64,000 nt of DNA from Yponomeuta sedellus. Its lineage: Eukaryota; Arthropoda; Insecta; Lepidoptera; Yponomeutidae. A program made the translations under genes and the position numbers. The notes beneath the pieces are model-generated. The model did not search any database, was not told the origin of the DNA, and saw only the letters and a list, made by a program, of their open reading frames with translations. Positions 12,001-58,499 of the stretch are shown here, piece after piece. Position 1 is the first letter of the stretch, and the number at the start of each line of letters is the position of its first letter. The DNA lies in contig OW203725.1 of the NCBI GenBank assembly GCA_934045075.1, positions 20,966,214-21,030,213 on the forward strand. The letters run 5' to 3'.

Positions 12001-13555
12001 CATTTTTATATTATAGACTAGCTGTGCCCCGCGGTGTTACTCGCGGCTTATCAAATTTCCCATGGGAATAAGATATTTTCCCGCAGCAAAACGTAGCCTA
12101 TGTGTTAATCCAGGGTGTCGGCTAACTCCATATCAAATTTTATCGCTCCAGCCGTTTAGCCGTGTAGAAGTAACAAACATACGCACTCACAAACTTTCGC
12201 CTTTATAATATTAGTGTGATAATCTCAGTATTTAAAAACCTATTTAGAGGCTAAAAGGCTATTTGACAGTGTGAAAAATAAAGTATTATTTATACATATT
12301 CGTAAAAAGAATATTTTTTTAAACCGGCCTATGCCATTTTAACCGAAAAAAATCGAATGATTTAACCAAAAAATCAAGATAAAACTTTATCATTTCGTAT
12401 CTGCATCAATTTTATTGAAAACGGCCTGGATTGGTCGAATCTATTGTGACGTCACAATTCAACAACCTGTACTGTCATCGCTAGGGGTGTGAATTGAATT
12501 GTCAAATTGTGACGTCACTAATTCCTGTGCGACGCCATATTGCCAAAGAGAGCGTTTTGGCGGCGTATTTTAAAAGTGAATTTTTGTTTGCTTTTCTATG
12601 AATAAATACGGGAAAGATTTTAGAATTATCACTTTCTGAAGGCTCATTTAACACTGACGAACATCTGAGATGGTTTTCAGAAACTTGTCAAATAGCCTAT
12701 TCGAACCCGCAACCTCTGGCTATCCGTGCCAGCGCTCTACCAATTGAGCCAATGGGCGACTCACGGCATCAGTGAAATTTCGAACCTCTTTACACTATTC
12801 TCTGTATTACGTACAGGCAGCGACATCTGACTTAAGCAAACTGCATTACTTACAGCCCCGACTACCTACTTTGCAGTTAGGTTTAACATCGGAACGATAT
12901 CACTGTACCTGTGGGTATCCGTGTCAATTGGTAGAGCGCTGGCACGGATAGCCAGAGGTTGCGGGTTCGAATCCCGGCATGGGTGGAATTTTTAGCCTCT
13001 AAATAGGTTTTTAAATTTGTTCCTTAGCACGGGTTAGTGCATTAAAAATAAAAATGGTGTAATAATCTCAGTATTTTGTTCGAATATTTTTTCATTTATT
13101 ATAGGCAATGCAAGATTTAAATATCGGAATACAAAATTTACATATCTTCTATTATATAAAAATGAATCGCTGAATGTGTTGTAAAGCGCAAATCTCGAGA
13201 GCAGCTGAACCGATTTCGCTAATTCTTTTTTAGAATATTCCTTGAAATCTCGAGTACGAGGATGGTTCTTACTCAGAGAAAAATAAATAAAAAAACAATT
13301 AAAGAATCGACTGCTAGGCGGTACGAAGTTCGCTGGGTCAGCTAGTAATATTTATATTACTCTCTACTGAACGTCATCCCTGCCTCTCCCCAGGCTTCCG
13401 AGGACAAGCGCAGCCAGAAAGAGATCGGCGATATCGCCGGCGTCGCCGACGTCACCATACGGCAGTCCTACAAACTCATGTACCCGTTCGCCGCGAAACT
13501 GTTCCCTGAGGACTTCAAGTTCGCGACGCCCATCGAGTTCCTCCCGCAGATGTGA
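9058..13555 (+). CDS. TfIIB: Transcription initiation factor IIB, five exons
   Basis: Spliced product of 315 residues. TFIIB bridges promoter-bound TBP and RNA polymerase II and helps set the start site in the nucleus. Exons: 9058-9074, 9269-9379, 9587-9887, 10331-10687, 13394-13555; all introns are GT-AG with phases 2, 2, 0, 0, and the lengths sum to 948 nt including TGA. Residues 14-36 form the zinc ribbon with ligands C14, H17, C33 and C36 (CYAH...CSEC). Residues about 43-110 are the reader/linker ([19 protein letters not shown]). The two cyclin-like repeats are about 118-200 and 212-300, with SRKEIG-type helices seen as [12 protein letters not shown] and [19 protein letters not shown]. 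The C-terminus is FLPQM. From recall it is very close to the Drosophila protein, also 315 residues. The first ATG gives the conserved MASTSR start. No frameshift or missing key residue is seen. Confidence 0.97.
9269..9379 (+). CDS. TfIIB: TFIIB coding exon 2 (zinc ribbon)
   Basis: Follows a tttgttttag acceptor and ends at GACAG before GTAACT. Encodes residues 6-43, including C14, H17, C33 and C36 and the conserved [15 protein letters not shown] segment. Confidence 0.96.
9587..9887 (+). CDS. TfIIB: TFIIB coding exon 3 (reader, linker, start of cyclin fold)
   Basis: Acceptor taatttccag, donor CAG/GTTTGT. Encodes residues 43-143 from RVIDVGSEW to NNLFKQ. Open frames on the opposite strand (9485-9754) and in frame 1 (9595-9801) are shadows. 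Confidence 0.97.
10044..10175. repeat. MITE in TFIIB intron 3
   Basis: Ends ccagtacgaattcgcgagtcgcg and cgcgtgactcgcgtcatcgtactacc are imperfect inverted repeats. The central tgtcaaattctgacattt palindrome recurs at 17985-18090 and 49628-49650, so this is a dispersed family. Confidence 0.65.
10240..10301. repeat. Hairpin in TFIIB intron 3
   Basis: aacctgtagaattctattg (10240-10258) and its reverse complement (10283-10301) match at 18 of 19. It ends 29 bp before exon 4. Confidence 0.6.
10331..10687 (+). CDS. TfIIB: TFIIB coding exon 4 (cyclin repeats 1 and 2)
   Basis: Acceptor tgcatttcag, donor CAG/GTATGT, exactly 119 codons. Encodes residues 144-262 from [10 protein letters not shown] to AAIYMASQ. 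Other frames over this exon are shadows. Confidence 0.97.
11381..11429. repeat. 22 bp hairpin in TFIIB intron 4
   Basis: ccacataaagttatagagtcaa (11381-11402) pairs with 11408-11429 at 21 of 22 positions across a 5 nt loop. The function is unknown; it may be a MITE remnant or simply a transcribed stem-loop. Confidence 0.6.
11833..12017 (-). mobile_element. Helitron-like element in TFIIB intron 4
   Basis: On the minus strand it runs from TCTATAATATAAAAATGAA to a CTAG end next to aagttcgctgggtaag. A plus-strand copy is at 13148-13345. Its 5' end abuts the 3' end of the next element with no gap. Confidence 0.6.
12018..12219 (-). mobile_element. Second Helitron-like element, abutting the first
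   Basis: On the minus strand it starts TCACACTAATATTATAAAGG and ends gcggggcacagCTAG. The sequence gtagcctatgtgttaatcca and cgaaagtttgtgagtgcgta are the kind I recall from common lepidopteran repeats. Confidence 0.6.
12234..13061. mobile_element. Composite tRNA-unit retro-insertion in TFIIB intron 4
   Basis: Bounded by a 15 bp target duplication ATAATCTCAGTATTT (12219-12233 and 13062-13076). The left part (12234-12909) is a minus copy of the 308 bp tRNA-domain unit; the right part (12910-13061) is a plus copy with its own tRNA-like domain and the 3' tail. Tail sequences are at both outer ends. The minus part is interrupted by a MITE (12257-12697). Confidence 0.8.
12257..12697. repeat. 441 bp MITE nested in the tRNA-unit insertion
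   Basis: Ends GGCTATTTGACA and TGTCAAATAGCC are inverted repeats. A related copy is at 46001-46981; they share gtatctgcatcaattttat, gcgac(g/a)ccatattgc and gttttcagaaac. About 20 bp of the host unit is missing at the insertion point. Confidence 0.75.
13148..13345 (+). mobile_element. Helitron-like element just upstream of TFIIB exon 5
   Basis: Begins TCTATTATATAAAAATGAA and ends gttcgctgggtcagCTAG before T. Opposite orientation to the copy at 11833-12017. It ends 48 bp before exon 5, so it sits at the branch-point/acceptor region of intron 4. Confidence 0.6.
13394..13555 (+). CDS. TfIIB: TFIIB coding exon 5 (C-terminus)
   Basis: Acceptor tctccccag; encodes residues 263-315 from [13 protein letters not shown] to LPQM, then TGA at 13553-13555. 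It is richer in G and C than the surrounding DNA. Confidence 0.97.
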
Positions 13556-20756: not shown

Positions 20757-20966
20757 ATTTACATTTACATACTCGTACAAGCACATACATTGCTTCTGGC
20801 CCCACACTAGGATACCCTGTGTCGTGGGAACCAGAAACAACGACATCACAAACATGTAAACATCCAAGACCTGGTGTTTTTTTTTGTTTCGAGCCGGGAT
20901 TCGAACCCGGGACCTCTGGTAGGTAGCATGGTAGGCAGACGCGCTACCGCTACGCCACGAAGGTCA
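20757..20966 (-). mobile_element. tRNA-headed SINE, family A
   Basis: On the minus strand the head reads gaccttcgtggcgtagcggt...ggttcgaatcccgg, then catgtttacatgtttgtga and gacacagggtatcc, ending acatacattg... tgtaaatg. Other copies: 50425-50634, 51729-51866, 59046-59202. Confidence 0.75.
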
Positions 20967-31800: not shown

Positions 31801-31886
31801 TAATTAGATATTTTAAAGTTATTTTGTATTTCAATTTATTAAAAAAAAAAAACATTTGGAATGTATGTTTCAACTGTCACCTTATA

Positions 31887-32235
31887 ATTATACTATTTTT
31901 ATTTTTAATGCAGTAACCCGTGCTAAGGACAATTTTAAAAACCTATTTAGAGGCTAAAAATTTCACCCATGCCGGGATTCGAACCCGCAACCTCTGGCTA
32001 TCCGTGCCAGCGCTCTTCCAATTGAGCCAATGGGCGACTTACCGGCATCAGTGAAATTTCGAACGTCTTTACACTATTCTCTGTATTACGTGCAGGCAGC
32101 GACATCTGGCTTAAGCAAATTGCATCACTTACAGCCCCGACTACCTACTTTGCAGTTAGGTTTTACATCGGAACGATATCACTGTACCCACATGATTATA
32201 CTATTTTTATTTTTAATGCACTAACCCGTGCTATG
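31887..32235 (-). mobile_element. tRNA-domain unit, 1.1-unit multimer
   Basis: A full unit (tail at left, tRNA-like domain about 31965-32036, leader to about 32190) followed by the tail of a second unit (attatactatttttattttt... acccgtgcta) at 32195-32235. It abuts a 5S-derived SINE. Confidence 0.75.
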
Positions 32236-36732: not shown

Positions 36733-37041
36733 CTTAAAAACCTATTTAGAGGCTAAAAATTCCACCCATGCCGGGATTCGAACCCGCGACCTCTGGCTAT
36801 CCGTGCCAGCGCTCTTTCCTACTGAGCTAATGGGCGACTCACCAGCATCAGTGAAATTTCGAACCTCTTTACACTATTCTCTGTATTACGTACAGGCAGC
36901 GACATCTGGCTGAAGTAATTTGTATCACTTGCAGCCCCGAGTACCTACTTTGCAGTTAGGTTATAGTTATAGTTATGTTTAGCCTCTAAATAGGTTTTTA
37001 AAATTGTCCTTAGCACGGGTTAGTGCATTAAAAAGAAAATA
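36733..37041. mobile_element. tRNA-domain unit, inverted arrangement
   Basis: The minus part (36733-36962) holds tail start, tRNA-like domain and leader. After a short tagttatagttatg joint comes a plus-strand tail (36976-37041: tttagcctctaaatagg... ttagtgcattaaaaag). Tail sequences therefore lie at both ends. No clear target duplication. Confidence 0.75.
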
Positions 37042-37370: not shown

Positions 37371-37420
37371 GTCGATAATACATAGTATATATATATTTAT
37401 TTAAATTTATGTTATAATAT

Positions 37421-38158
<738 letters not shown>

Positions 38159-38162
38159 GTTA

Positions 38163-38207
38163 TACCATTTAATCTCTTGCACCATCTGTGCAAGAGATTA
38201 AATGGTA
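38163..38207. repeat. 20 bp perfect hairpin with 5 nt loop
   Basis: taccatttaatctcttgcac, loop catct, then the exact reverse complement. It begins 5 bp after the ATTT tract. Confidence 0.85.
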
Positions 38208-40280: not shown

Positions 40281-40930
40281 GTGATGTGGGATCTTACAGC
40301 CAACATATTATATATTTTACGTAGTTTTTACACTACATCCTGAGCTCGCTCCTGGGCCATGTCTATAAGCTGTTTTCACGAGTGGTCACGAATCGTCTCG
40401 CCAGGAGACTCGACGAGTTCCAGCCGCCGGAACAGGCCGGGTTTCGCGGAGGATATGGCACCATAGATAGACCACATACACAGTAAGCAGATTTTATAGA
40501 AGTCTTAAGAGTATAACCAGCCCCTGTGCCTGGCCTTTGTGGACTATGAGAAGATTTCCGGCGTGATGTGGGATCTTGCAGCCAACATAATATATATTTT
40601 ACGTAGTTTGTACACTACATAAGGAGCTCGCTCCTGGGCCATGTCTATAAGTTGTTTTCACGAGTGGTCACGAATCGTCTCGCCAGGAGACTCGACGAGT
40701 TCCAGCCGCCGGAACAGGCCGGGTTTCGCGGAGGATATGGCACCATAGACCACATTCACACAGTGAGGCAGATTATACAGAAATCCGGAGAGTATATTCA
40801 GCCCCTGTGCCTGGCCTTTGTGGACTATGAGAAGACCTTTGATTCTGTCGAAAACTGGGCTGTTCTGGAATCTGGAAGACAGGGTGATGTTATATCCCTG
40901 AAACTATTCACAAGGGCATTAACATGGTAA
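40281..40930 (+). pseudogene. RTE-type LINE reverse transcriptase, duplicated and broken
   Basis: The frame 40652-40930 reads FSRVVTNRLARRLDEFQPPE, then QAGFRGGYGTIDHIHTVRQI and CLAFVDYEKTFDSVENWAVL, the fingers/palm region of an RTE-type reverse transcriptase. It then jumps to GRQGDVISLKLFTRAL, which in the family lies tens of residues later, so there is an internal deletion that removes the catalytic-loop approach. The first about 280 bp occur twice: gtgatgtggg at 40281 and 40563, with the first copy broken by indels after ggcaccatagata. No start or finish of ORF2 is present. Confidence 0.8.
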
Positions 40931-41027
40931 ATTTGACCCTATTTCCTGGTAAATGTAATTCTAGATAAACCGCCTGCGCCTATTACCTCACATAGAAAAA
41001 GTGTGTAATAAACCAAATATATATTAT

Positions 41028-41800
41028 ACTATTTTTATTTTTAATGCACTAACCCGTGCTAAGGACAAATTTAAAAACCTATTTAGAGGCTAAAAATTTC
41101 ACCCATGCCGGGATTCGAACCCGCAACCTCTGGCTATCCGTGCCAGCGCTCTACCAATTGAGCCAATGTGCGACTCACCGGCATCAGTAAAATTTCGAAC
41201 CTCTTTACACTATTCTCTGTATTACGTACAGGCAGCGACATCTGGCTTAAGCAAATTGCATCACTTACAGCCCCGACTACCTACTTTGCAGTTAGGTTTT
41301 ACATCGGAACGATATCACTGTACTCACATGATTATACTATTTTTATTTTTAATGCACTAACCCGTGCTAAGGACAAATTCAAAAACCTATTTAGAGGCTA
41401 AAAATTTCACCCATGCCGGGATTCGAACCCGCAACCTCTGGCTATCCGTGCCAGCGCTCTACCAATTGAGCCAATGGGCGACTCACCGGCATCAGTGAAA
41501 TTTCGAACCTCTTTACACTATTCTCTGTATTACGTACAGGCAGCGACATTGGCTTAAGCAAATTGCATCACTTACAGCCCCGACTACCTACTTTGCAGTT
41601 AGGTTTTACATCGGAACGATATCACTGTACTCACATGATTATACTATTTTTATTTTTAATGCACTAACCGGTGCTAAGGACAAATTCAAAAACCTATTTA
41701 GAGGCTAAAAATTTCACCCATGCCGGGATTCGAACCCGCGACCTCTGGCTATCCGTGCCAGCGCTCTACCAATTGAGCCAATGGGCGACTCACCGGCATC
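41028..41800 (-). mobile_element. Tandem 2.5-unit array of the 308 bp tRNA-domain element
   Basis: Bounded by the 13 bp duplication AAATATATATTAT (41015-41027 and 41801-41813). The acccgtgct marker recurs at 41051, 41359 and 41666, so the period is 307-308 bp. tRNA-like domains are at about 41100-41171, 41408-41479 and 41716-41787 (minus), with box B ggttcgaatcc and box A tggctcaattggtagagc. The array is cut at its 5' end inside the leader (ccggcatc). The duplication at the outer ends indicates one insertion of a multimer. Confidence 0.9.
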
Positions 41801-41950
41801 AAATATATATTATTTGTATGTTCTACTCAGACTGAAAATATCTTCTGATTTGCACACATCCGTAATTGTATACTACGGTTATGTATGGCGAATCAGTTTT
41901 AAGGTACGCACTAGTTTTAAGGGGATATTCTTGATATATCTAAAGAGTAT

Positions 41951-42170
41951 AGTATTTTCTAAGGTTAACACGAGCAGTAGACATAATTAAAACTGTTTTT
42001 ATACGGATTTATGCTCGTTTATTAAATTTTTACAATTTTCCAACGTTTCGGCACTTTTTCAGGTGCCATTGAGTCATCCGGGACCACGGCACCTGAAAAA
42101 GTGCCGAAACGTTGGAAAGTTGTAAAAAAGTAATAAACGAGCATAAATCCGTATAAAAACAGTTTTAATT
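41951..42170. mobile_element. Inverted-dimer retro-insertion, 'gtgccgaaacgttgg' family
   Basis: Bounded by the 15 bp duplication ATATCTAAAGAGTAT (41936-41950 and 42171-42185). Two long arms (about 41985-42065 and 42088-42170) are near-perfect reverse complements around attgagtcatccgggaccac. Both outer ends are the same 3' tail, aaaacagttttaatt. A related single copy is at 54888-54985. It may be a Penelope-like tail; class uncertain. Confidence 0.75.
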
Positions 42171-42594
42171 ATATCTAAAGAGTATTTATCCAGAGAGCCT
42201 CTTATAGTGCATCACCCTGAGATTGCAAGTCTGTGCTTAAGAAATTAAAAGTACCTACTGTTGTTGCCAACTCTCTACATGTATGAAATTGCATGTTTTG
42301 CATACAATTACATACAAATTTTTAGGAAATATAGTGAATCGTACAAATTTAAAACATCCAAACAAAATTGTCTATCCCTAATGTAACTGAATTTTGTATG
42401 AGAAGCTACTACCGCAAGCTTATAAAAAAACATTAAAAGTTGTCAGAATCATTACCACTACTGCACTGTCTACCAGAGCCACTGCCTCGTGTTATATATA
42501 ATACTAGTTTGCCAATCTCAGGTTATTTTTTTTCCACGACAAAAGAACCTATTCACTTTTTTGAGACTTATTTTTAACAAGTAAAAAACTCAAC

Positions 42595-50424: not shown

Positions 50425-50634
50425 TAACATAACATAACATTTACATACAGGCACATACATTGCTTCTGACCCCACACTAGGATACCCTGTGTCGTGGGAA
50501 CCAGAAACAACAACAGCACAAACATGTAAACATGCAATCCAAGACCTGGGCTTTTTTTTTGTTCCCAGCCGGGATTCGAACCCGGGACCTCTTGCATGGT
50601 AGGCAGACGCGCTACCGTTACGCCACAGAGGTCG
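50425..50634 (-). mobile_element. tRNA-headed SINE, family A
   Basis: Minus strand head cgacctctgtggcgtaacgg, tagcgcgtctgcctacc, ggttcgaatcccggctggga; tail with catgtttacatgtttgtgc, ggtatcctagtgtggggtca and an atgttatgttatgtt end. It lies only 15 bp from the family B copy in the same orientation. The head resembles tRNA-Trp in its first half. Confidence 0.8.
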
Positions 50635-50639
50635 TTTTG

Positions 50640-51728
50640 GCATGGAATTTGAATGTTTTCACTATCCAGCTTTAATAACTTTTAAACAAACAAATAATCC
50701 CTTTAATTTTGCTAGCTACTTCCCTCACTAATTACTCGCACTTATGATGTCTTGAAGAAATTGTACGAAAAATAGACAGTTCAGACCAGCAATAATTTCA
50801 TAAATTCCAACCTGTCACCATGTCCTTGACCAAAAACCGTCATCAAAGTATGACAATTAGAAATCGTCCTTGCGTGACTAGCTATCGCCCGGAGGCCATT
50901 TCCGTCACTTTCGACAGACACGCGACCTATCAAAAGTATCCGAAAACTGTGCACCGCTTCCTCGAACCAAATAGGGAAATGTAGTTATGTATTTTGTCTT
51001 GCTTGATGAGGCGATGATTAGTACGCAGTAGTCGTACTAGTCAGGCAGTCGAGGGCAGTAGTCAACGAGTGTGATCGTCATCGCAATGTGTTTTTTAAAA
51101 ACATAAATAAACGGAAAAAATCGTATTTTTAAAATATGAAACTGATTAGCATTATACTTTTAAGTTTTCATTATTCGCCATGCTAGCACATTATATCAAA
51201 ATAAAATCTTAAATGTTAATTGAGCAGACCAAAACTTAGCAATATATGAAGTAATTGCGAACCCCCATCTAAATAATATTGTTTCTAAGCGTACAGCGCT
51301 TCATTCGGGGTGAACTTAATTATATCCCCATGTATAGTATTTGTTCCGTAATAAAATAAAGTAAGCATGTTTTAAATATAAAGTAAGAATTTAACGATCG
51401 TAAATATCCTTTGGGTGTGGAACTGGGTTTGCACTTGACCTCTGTCTCAACTTGCCTGTAGCAATCGAAGACGTGGTCTAAAGTTACTATTCAAGTAACG
51501 TTACTTTGAGTTCTCGTTTGTCAATCTAATGTGACGGACCCATGTGCTGTGCTTACCTTATTATAAGTAGGTACTATAACGCTCTAGGATTAAACTTCAC
51601 TAAATGTACTACTCCACTTATTAAAAATGCGTAATTCAAAATAATAATATACCTTTTTAATTATACCTTTTTTATTGAATCCCTAGCCTAGCTAGGCCTC
51701 GACTGACACTTGCGCTGGCCAGCTTAAC
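50640..51728. other. No gene recognised
   Basis: AT-rich with no domain-bearing frame. Confidence 0.35.
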
Positions 51729-51866: not shown

Positions 51867-52211
51867 AAAGAAATATTCTATTATAAAGAAGTATCGTTAC
51901 AGTTCTTATCACGATGTTGTTTTAAATCAATTTTTTTGTCGTTCCATAGCTATTTAAGTGCTTAAGACCTGGTAATTGACTTTCTAAATATTACCTACTT
52001 GCGATGGCCGAGCGGATCCTCAAAAAGTTAAATCAAAATGGTGTCTGAAACTACCCAGTTTTATCAATAGAAACAGTAAAACAGTGGTATAATAAATAAA
52101 GCAATCGACAATAATAATAAGCCATTAAACTTAGCAAATAGATTAAGTTAATTTGATTATTTAGGTGGTGGTTCTTATGTTATAAAAAATACAAATATGA
52201 TATGTCATTTA

Positions 52212-52285
52212 TAATATTTTTAGTTCTAATGCACTAACCCGTGCTAAGGACAATCTTAAAAATAGCCTCTAAATAGGTTTTTAAA
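52212..52285. mobile_element. 74 bp tRNA-unit tail insertion with inverted piece
   Basis: Bounded by ATGTCATTTA (52202-52211 and 52286-52295). Left part, minus: the 3' tail through agcacgggttagtgcatt. Right part, plus: tagcctctaaataggttttt, which in the unit lies immediately upstream of the left part. Adjacent segments in opposite orientation are the signature of twin priming. Confidence 0.8.
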
Positions 52286-57703: not shown

Positions 57704-58482
57704 TATTTAAAAACCTATTTAGAGGCTAAAAATTTCACCCATGCCGGGATTCGAACCCGCAACCTCTGGCTATCCGTACCAGCGCTCTACCAATTGAGCC
57801 AATGGGCGACTCACGGCATCAGTGAAATTTCGAACCTCTTTACAATATTCTCTGTATTACGTACAGGCAGCGACATCTGACTTAAGCAAATTGCATTACT
57901 TACAGCCCCGATTACCTACTTTGCAGTTAGGTTTAACATCGGAACGATATCACTGTACCCACATGATTACACTATTTTTATTTTTAATGCACTAACCCGT
58001 GCTAAGGAACAAATTTAAAAACCTATTTAGAGGCTAAAAATTTCACCCATGCCGGGATTCGAACCCGCAACCTCTGGCTATCCGTACCAGCGCTCTACCA
58101 ATTGAGCCAATGGGCGACTCACGGCATCAGTGAAATTTCGAACCTCTTTACAATATTCTCTGTATTACGTACAGGCAGCGACATCTGACTTAAGCAAATT
58201 GCATTACTTACAGCCCCGATTACCTACTTTGCAGTTAGGTTTAACATCGGAACGATATCACTGTACCCACATGATTACACTATTTTTATTTTTAATGCAC
58301 TAACCCGTGCTAAGGAACAAATTTAAAAACCTATTTAGAGGCTAAAAATTTCACCCATGCCGGGATTCGAACCCGCAACCTCTGGCTATCCGTACCAGCG
58401 CTCTACCAATTGAGCCAATGGGCTAAATTTTTTAAATTTGTTCCTTAGCACGGGTTAGTGCATTAAAAATAAAAATAGTGTA
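57704..58482. mobile_element. Three tandem tRNA-domain units plus inverted tail
   Basis: Bounded by AACACTATTA (57694-57703 and 58483-58492). Three minus-strand units begin at 57711, 58019 and 58327 (exact 308 bp period, nearly identical). tRNA-like domains are at 57736-57807, 58044-58115 and 58352-58423. After the third domain the sequence switches to the plus-strand tail (tttttaaatttgttcctta... cattaaaaataaaaatagtg). The junction falls at the same TTTTTAAA where the left end is cut, as expected from twin priming on a multimeric RNA. Confidence 0.9.
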
Positions 58483-58499
58483 AACACTATTAAATGCCA

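Follow-up and report, generated by a model that had tools for sequence, protein, structure and literature searches.

What kind of event places two and a half copies of a tRNA-bearing sequence head-to-tail inside one short direct repeat? The question is raised by an array in the window, by which we mean the whole stretch of 64,000 nt analysed here (positions 20966214-21030213 of the Yponomeuta sedellus contig numbered C4 in our set). TRF describes the array as 2.5 copies with a period of 307 and 98% matches (41023-41801), the head-to-tail units being 307-308 bp long. ARAGORN and the Rfam tRNA family match in all three units, which confirms the 2.5 units, each with a tRNA-like domain, described in the first-pass annotation (Table 1). 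The perfect 13-bp flanking repeat reported there, AAATATATATTAT at 41015-41027 and 41801-41813, is likewise found, is extended to 14 bp by a preceding C and exceeds what mismatched flanks give by chance. Five of its bases, ATTAT, coincide with the end of the unit itself. The window carries many shorter copies of the same family. Its other features include a reverse transcriptase remnant just upstream of the array (40500-40900, read by eye), which we take to be RTE-like, and a long TATT microsatellite at 37400-38200.

Table 1. Coordinates in the window of the array, of other copies of its family and of the repeats compared with it.
Feature	Position	Strand	Remarks
Array, 2.5 head-to-tail units	41028..41800	- (sense)	single-armed insertion; 3' end type A (S164); 5' end S1
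tRNA-like domain, 3'-most unit	41098..41173	-	ARAGORN and Rfam
tRNA-like domain, middle unit	41406..41481	-	ARAGORN and Rfam
tRNA-like domain, 5'-most (partial) unit	41713..41788	-	ARAGORN and Rfam
B site GGTTTTTAAA, 3'-most unit	41070..41079	-	S114 = A; passed through here
B site GGTTTTTGAA, middle unit	41378..41387	-	S114 = G
B site GGTTTTTGAA, 5'-most unit	41685..41694	-	S114 = G
Target-site duplication, left copy CAAATATATATTAT	41014..41027	.	last 5 nt are also the unit end
Target-site duplication, right copy	41800..41813	.	
Second array: minus arm of 2.3 units, end B (S117); 64-bp plus arm, end A (S166)	57705..58486	.	10-bp duplication
Family copy, 1.1-1.2 units	31873..32233	-	
Two-armed family copy; one outer end (S73) neither A nor B	12699..13066	.	
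Two-armed family copy, outer ends B and A	36734..37039	.	no duplication detected
Small two-armed family copy, outer ends A and B	52209..52285	.	10-bp duplication
Penelope-like pLTR, two-armed: minus arm with tail (outer end 41951), plus arm without tail	41951..42169	.	
Control tRNA SINE pieces	50430-50640, 20761-20965		further pieces in window and sampled loci

The unit is numbered on its sense (minus) strand from S1 = TGATGCCGTGAG. A leader and the tRNA-like domain are followed by a tail, which holds the B site (GGTTTTTAAA at S116), the family's second reverse transcription start position, and 47 nt further the A site (AAATAGTATAATC at about S163), and then by a spacer of about 144 nt. Box A/B-like sequences are read by eye in the tRNA-like head. 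The consensus unit carries a tRNA-like promoter and a T5 run, in each unit a likely pol III stop. With 308 nt the unit is too short to encode a protein with reverse transcriptase and GIY-YIG domains. The genome searched (657.5 Mb in 57 contigs) contains 17,809 exact matches to a 22-nt pattern across the unit junction and 31,747 matches to a 20-place pattern of the B site, the reversed controls giving 0 in both cases; a 19-mer query has no matches in viral and prokaryote contig collections. Our sample consists of the window plus 38 loci centred on the best matches to the unit elsewhere in the genome, a choice that biases array length upward, with many by-catch copies inside. L001-L008, duplicates of the window or of later loci, were dropped before any count. 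Mapping yields 105 clusters, of which the script's rule classes 40 as two-armed. Segments below 85% identity were left out of clusters and those below 92% out of haplotypes and 5' ends.

The 3' ends of the copies fall mainly into two groups, at about S116 (B) and at S162-167 (A), and the 5' ends are scattered. At an identity of at least 92% there are 102 arms with classed 3' ends, 55 A and 47 B, and a stop rate of about 0.003 per nt. Among these arms the zone where a start from the tRNA promoter is expected holds 11 5' stops, for 10.0 expected. The rate is uneven, being higher at S29-56, S85-98, S141-168 and S197-210, and S113-126 has zero stops. Two-armed insertions have their 3' ends outside and their arms joined 5' to 5'; arrays lie within arms, and one duplication surrounds the whole. 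The outer ends of the 40 two-armed clusters are A/B in 28, A/A in 2 and B/B in 1, and 9 have at least one side unclassed. With end classes that were defined after the data were seen, the pairing of one A with one B end (the A/B rule) holds in 28 of the 31 two-armed insertions classed at both ends (binomial P about 2e-6) and is broken in three. Several of the 12 clusters that the script scores as other than A/B (L016, with three rows, L024 297, L027, L037 and L042) look by eye like parts of A/B insertions, the counts being left unchanged. Some apparent single arms also hide a tiny second arm (L014 3427 and, by eye, L045 4292). Arms have a median length of 291 nt in this sample biased to long arms, and the longest run is of 7.1 units in one arm. 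Arm lengths within a locus correlate at Spearman 0.36 (P 0.058, n 28), a value set aside as evidence. A second sample, the first 100 unit junctions of contig C1 in genome order, resolves into 71 loci, and 15 of these have neighbours on the same strand at unit spacing; all nine adjacent opposite-strand pairs are in 5'-to-5' order.

The duplications detected around family insertions are 9-16 bp long. Flanks match over at least 12 bp in 18 of 27 two-armed A/B insertions (a set taken at a 90% identity threshold) versus 0 of 521 mismatched flank pairs, and in 10 of 42 single-armed insertions versus 0 of 815. In the 20 A/B insertions with a match of at least 9 bp the duplication overlaps the element by a mean of 3.0 nt at the A end and 2.9 nt at the B end. 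Such a match is present in 17 of the 42 single-armed insertions, with overlaps of 2.5 nt at the 3' end and 1.1 nt at the 5' end. Units of one locus are also alike. At 11 variable sites concordance is 0.933 within an arm (830 comparisons), 0.952 between the arms of a locus (537) and 0.536 between loci (70,962 comparisons; 78 clusters, 33 two-armed). None of 2000 arm shuffles reaches the within-locus value. This contrast between high agreement within loci and low agreement between them indicates one template per insertion. In the C1 sample S160 is concordant in 19 of 20 multi-junction loci, again reached by 0 of 2000 shuffles, the exception being 1820101/1820410.

Because duplications bracket arrays and mirror-image array pairs, and because units mostly share a common haplotype per locus, insertion in one event is well supported, as the first-pass annotation had proposed for a multimeric, RNA-derived array. 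A monomer that inserted first and was then duplicated locally in tandem would also make units of one locus more alike than units of different loci. This course of events is nonetheless very unlikely, since arrays of both orientations and one haplotype lie inside one duplication, so that both arms would need like action, and since the lengths of arrays do not come in whole units and 3' ends sit at two sites. An assembly artefact is scarcely credible for so many loci on many contigs, each with its own duplication and haplotype.

The same pairing of ends is found in Penelope-like elements of this genome. About 140 bp from the array the window holds a two-armed pLTR-like insertion flanked by a 16-bp duplication, TATATCTAAAGAGTAT, at 41935-41950 and 42170-42185. 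We name its family PLE1; none of the copies examined has its own protein. In all five two-armed copies (window, L021, L028, L038 and the complex L031) a short end is paired with a tailed one, the pairing being read partly by eye and the duplications by eye except that of the window. The extra tail is about 36 nt long, and four single PLE1 copies are short. Two partial matches in L013, to the first 38 nt only, were left out of these counts, and two other pLTR-like families (L013, L025 and L028 6134) were left unclassed by ends. The first three letters of the PLE1 tail are ATG, and the open frame could start with this tail. A GIY...YIG motif is present in a fragment in L010, and L019 holds the C-terminal part of a second such fragment; each is followed by a pLTR-like stretch containing GAAACGTCG or a close variant, to which the stretch of PLE1 is similar. 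We take the motif and the C-terminus to be of Penelope-like type; the assignment rests on them, on the adjoining pLTR-like stretch and on lepidopteran relatives of the endonuclease fragment (in Pararge, Brenthis and Spodoptera, none named Penelope-like). The endonuclease stretch recurs in the genome, where all 150 scored of 1,923 candidates match, with open frames up to 465 aa. The Pfam GIY-YIG model has one match in the genome, none in the L010 fragment and, among six relatives of that fragment, one at E 0.0035, below cut-off, so that Pfam does not confirm the endonuclease identity. Penelope-like endonuclease sequences also occur as opposite-strand pairs with the minus copy first (C4:21650772/21651603 and C1:7537279/7538651), the order expected of two-armed insertions. 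The search for an autonomous partner with the tail of our family found none; the similarity of this tail to the PLE1 pLTR is marginal, a score that 9 of 500 shuffles also reach.

The spread of SINEs is usually attributed to LINEs, and duplications, 5' truncation and 5' inversions are LINE features. A SINE mobilised by a LINE with classical twin priming, its arrays produced either by template jumping or by source loci already in tandem, is one alternative, and a pattern scan finds LINE-like reverse transcriptase motifs in some sampled loci. We regard it as improbable. It does not foresee that two different 3' start sites are paired, one per arm, by a rule that Penelope-like copies also follow, nor that A arms of A/B loci (50-1036 nt) extend beyond the B position. 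Template jumping from RNA to RNA should mix haplotypes more than is observed, and a control, another tRNA-bearing SINE, has no close opposite-strand pairs among its 15 pieces in the window and sampled loci.

The 3' end classes, their A/B pairing, the duplication overlap of about 3 nt and the same pairing of short and tailed ends in PLE1 lead us to a likely insertion reaction of Penelope type. A Penelope-like reverse transcriptase/endonuclease of this genome would make a staggered cut in the target, and both 3' overhangs would pair with the RNA over about 3 nt. Reverse transcription, as the sequences show, starts at A, at B or at both, the two target strands nearly always using different positions. 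Copying can continue beyond a single unit, and in one arm reaches up to 7 units, on a template that would be endless, less certainly, as a circular RNA. The two growing cDNAs would finally be joined in the middle to leave mirror-image arms, 5' to 5', inside one duplication. Taken as a whole, the family is in our judgement probably a tRNA-derived, non-coding retroelement of Penelope type whose template is in effect an endless RNA and most likely a circle. The multimeric, one-event retrotransposition of the first-pass annotation is retained in this reading; the Penelope-type signature, which had not been considered there, is added to it. Our confidence in the Penelope-type reading is slightly lowered by 13 of 46 loci in which units, S114 aside, are discordant at one or more of nine variable sites. 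The window array, at S253, is among them, and six loci (L011, L017, L023, L024, L028 and L029) are discordant at two or more sites.

That RNA 5' ends form no peak speaks for a circular template. Together with the arm of 7.1 units and the mostly single haplotype per locus it favours either a circle or the repeated use of one RNA, and a circular RNA is a plausible template from these patterns. The circle would be dispensable if the template were a long linear multimer, transcribed by read-through of a tandem array in the genome and primed at two internal sites in Penelope fashion. We hold this alternative to be rather unlikely, although a linear mRNA of several copies is proposed for the PLE of PMC11167929, and loci with several discordant sites would fit a heterogeneous source array. 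Each unit carries a tRNA-like promoter and a T5 run, yet 5' ends are not in excess at the expected start. Arms are short, so that arrays copied from arrays should shrink, and L046 still spans 8.2 units in two arms with a single haplotype except at S114. At this site, which directly follows the U5 run, the letter is A or G, with C or T as rare variants, and 19 of 32 loci have units that disagree there; the nine other variable sites each show such disagreement in 1-6 of 22-38 loci. Such variation between units is awkward for a simple monomer circle. It could reflect misreading at each lap of a modified or ligated nucleotide, or marks on individual units of a multimer, and independent marks of this kind would fit the linear RNA. 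ADAR editing alone is rejected for S114, where letters seem to switch both ways (L046, L035).

Lap-end stops, left by a reverse transcriptase falling off after a full circle, were also sought with a width of 30. They occur near A in 9 of 42 A-arm versus 3 of 38 B-arm passes (P 0.12), and near B in 3 of 35 versus 8 of 89, which is no effect. The test is not used as evidence because arms slightly longer than one unit are favoured by the phase of the query.

Rfam models of known self-cleaving ribozymes have no match in the window at gathering level, none in 40900-41900 at E up to 10 for ribozymes including hammerhead, and none in seven loci, PLE pLTRs among them, at E up to 5, a level at which degenerate PLE hammerheads may escape. 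The remark in the first-pass annotation that no hammerhead core is visible is borne out by these searches of the window, the array and the seven loci. Folded as a circle, the unit is predicted, without a shuffle control, to form a rod with two long hairpins at -96 kcal/mol. A more specific picture, which we put forward tentatively, is that of a viroid-like circular RNA derived from a tRNA-SINE, without hammerhead and closed near the U-run at S113/S114. A Penelope-like enzyme would use this RNA as an endless template, the two subunits of the enzyme extending both strands from two different start sites of one circle, and S114 would be the scar of closure.

The element combines features of several known systems. 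MRC1 of Chlamydomonas is, like it, a non-autonomous PLE-type element in tandem, and to our knowledge has no tRNA-like domain. tRNA-derived SINEs (SINE2) share its tRNA-like head, box A/B-like sequences, very high copy number and target duplications, but the unit described here has a spacer upstream of the tRNA, forms multimers, ends at two 3' positions and builds mirror-image arms. Penelope-like elements, for example PAc of Anolis (PMC11167929), resemble it in tandem or partial-tandem copies, extension of both strands and two internal reverse transcription starts. In that study a PLE protein cleaves and extends both target strands in vitro and starts at two internal RNA sites, the optional "tail" being the stretch between them, 30-40 bp for Penelope and 47 nt here (PMC11167929). 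The in vitro start site does not differ between strands, unlike the A/B rule. Our element differs from PLEs in its 308-nt length, its tRNA-like domain, the lack of a detected hammerhead and the use of different start sites per arm.

According to the accessible portions of PMC7229834 and PMC7761336, animal retrozymes are arranged in tandem, with units about 300 bp long that contain type I hammerheads; they have circular RNA and no known partner element. The non-LTR retrozymes in the portion of PMC7229834 available are alike in unit size, in forming dimers to multimers, in duplications longer than 4 bp and in a proposed circular template. The tandem units of our family lie within the 150-450 bp used to recognise retrozymes and carry target duplications; in place of a hammerhead at Rfam level, however, there is a tRNA-like domain, and arms are mirror images. 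Helenus, as far as the available text of PMC10886601 describes it, is a TRIM with a tRNA-like sequence in its LTRs. It is alike as a non-autonomous retroelement with a repeated tRNA-like sequence and is set apart by its LTRs, PBS, PPT and duplications of 4-5 bp, those here being 9-16 bp. The available part of PMC12910113 has nothing on inverted Penelope arms. In the portions consulted, none of the papers cited here reports the combination of features seen in our family, and a search at title and abstract level, with most subscription literature outside it, found no description of a tRNA element with a Penelope-type signature.

If true, a high-copy tRNA element with such a signature would be a new pairing. 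The A/B rule would give a simple account of the optional Penelope tail, which would mark the start site that a strand had used, and it predicts the geometry of one RNA, two start sites and two target strands. Arrays would also record the run length of the enzyme and its reading of each lap. A preference for AT-rich DNA is reported for the PLE of PMC11167929, and many targets of our family look AT-rich by impression. Three insertions (L014 at about 236, L015 at about 3117 and L044 at about 3261) lie at the same point of what appears to be another repeat (CAAGTGATTGATT or a near variant), which may be a preferred target.
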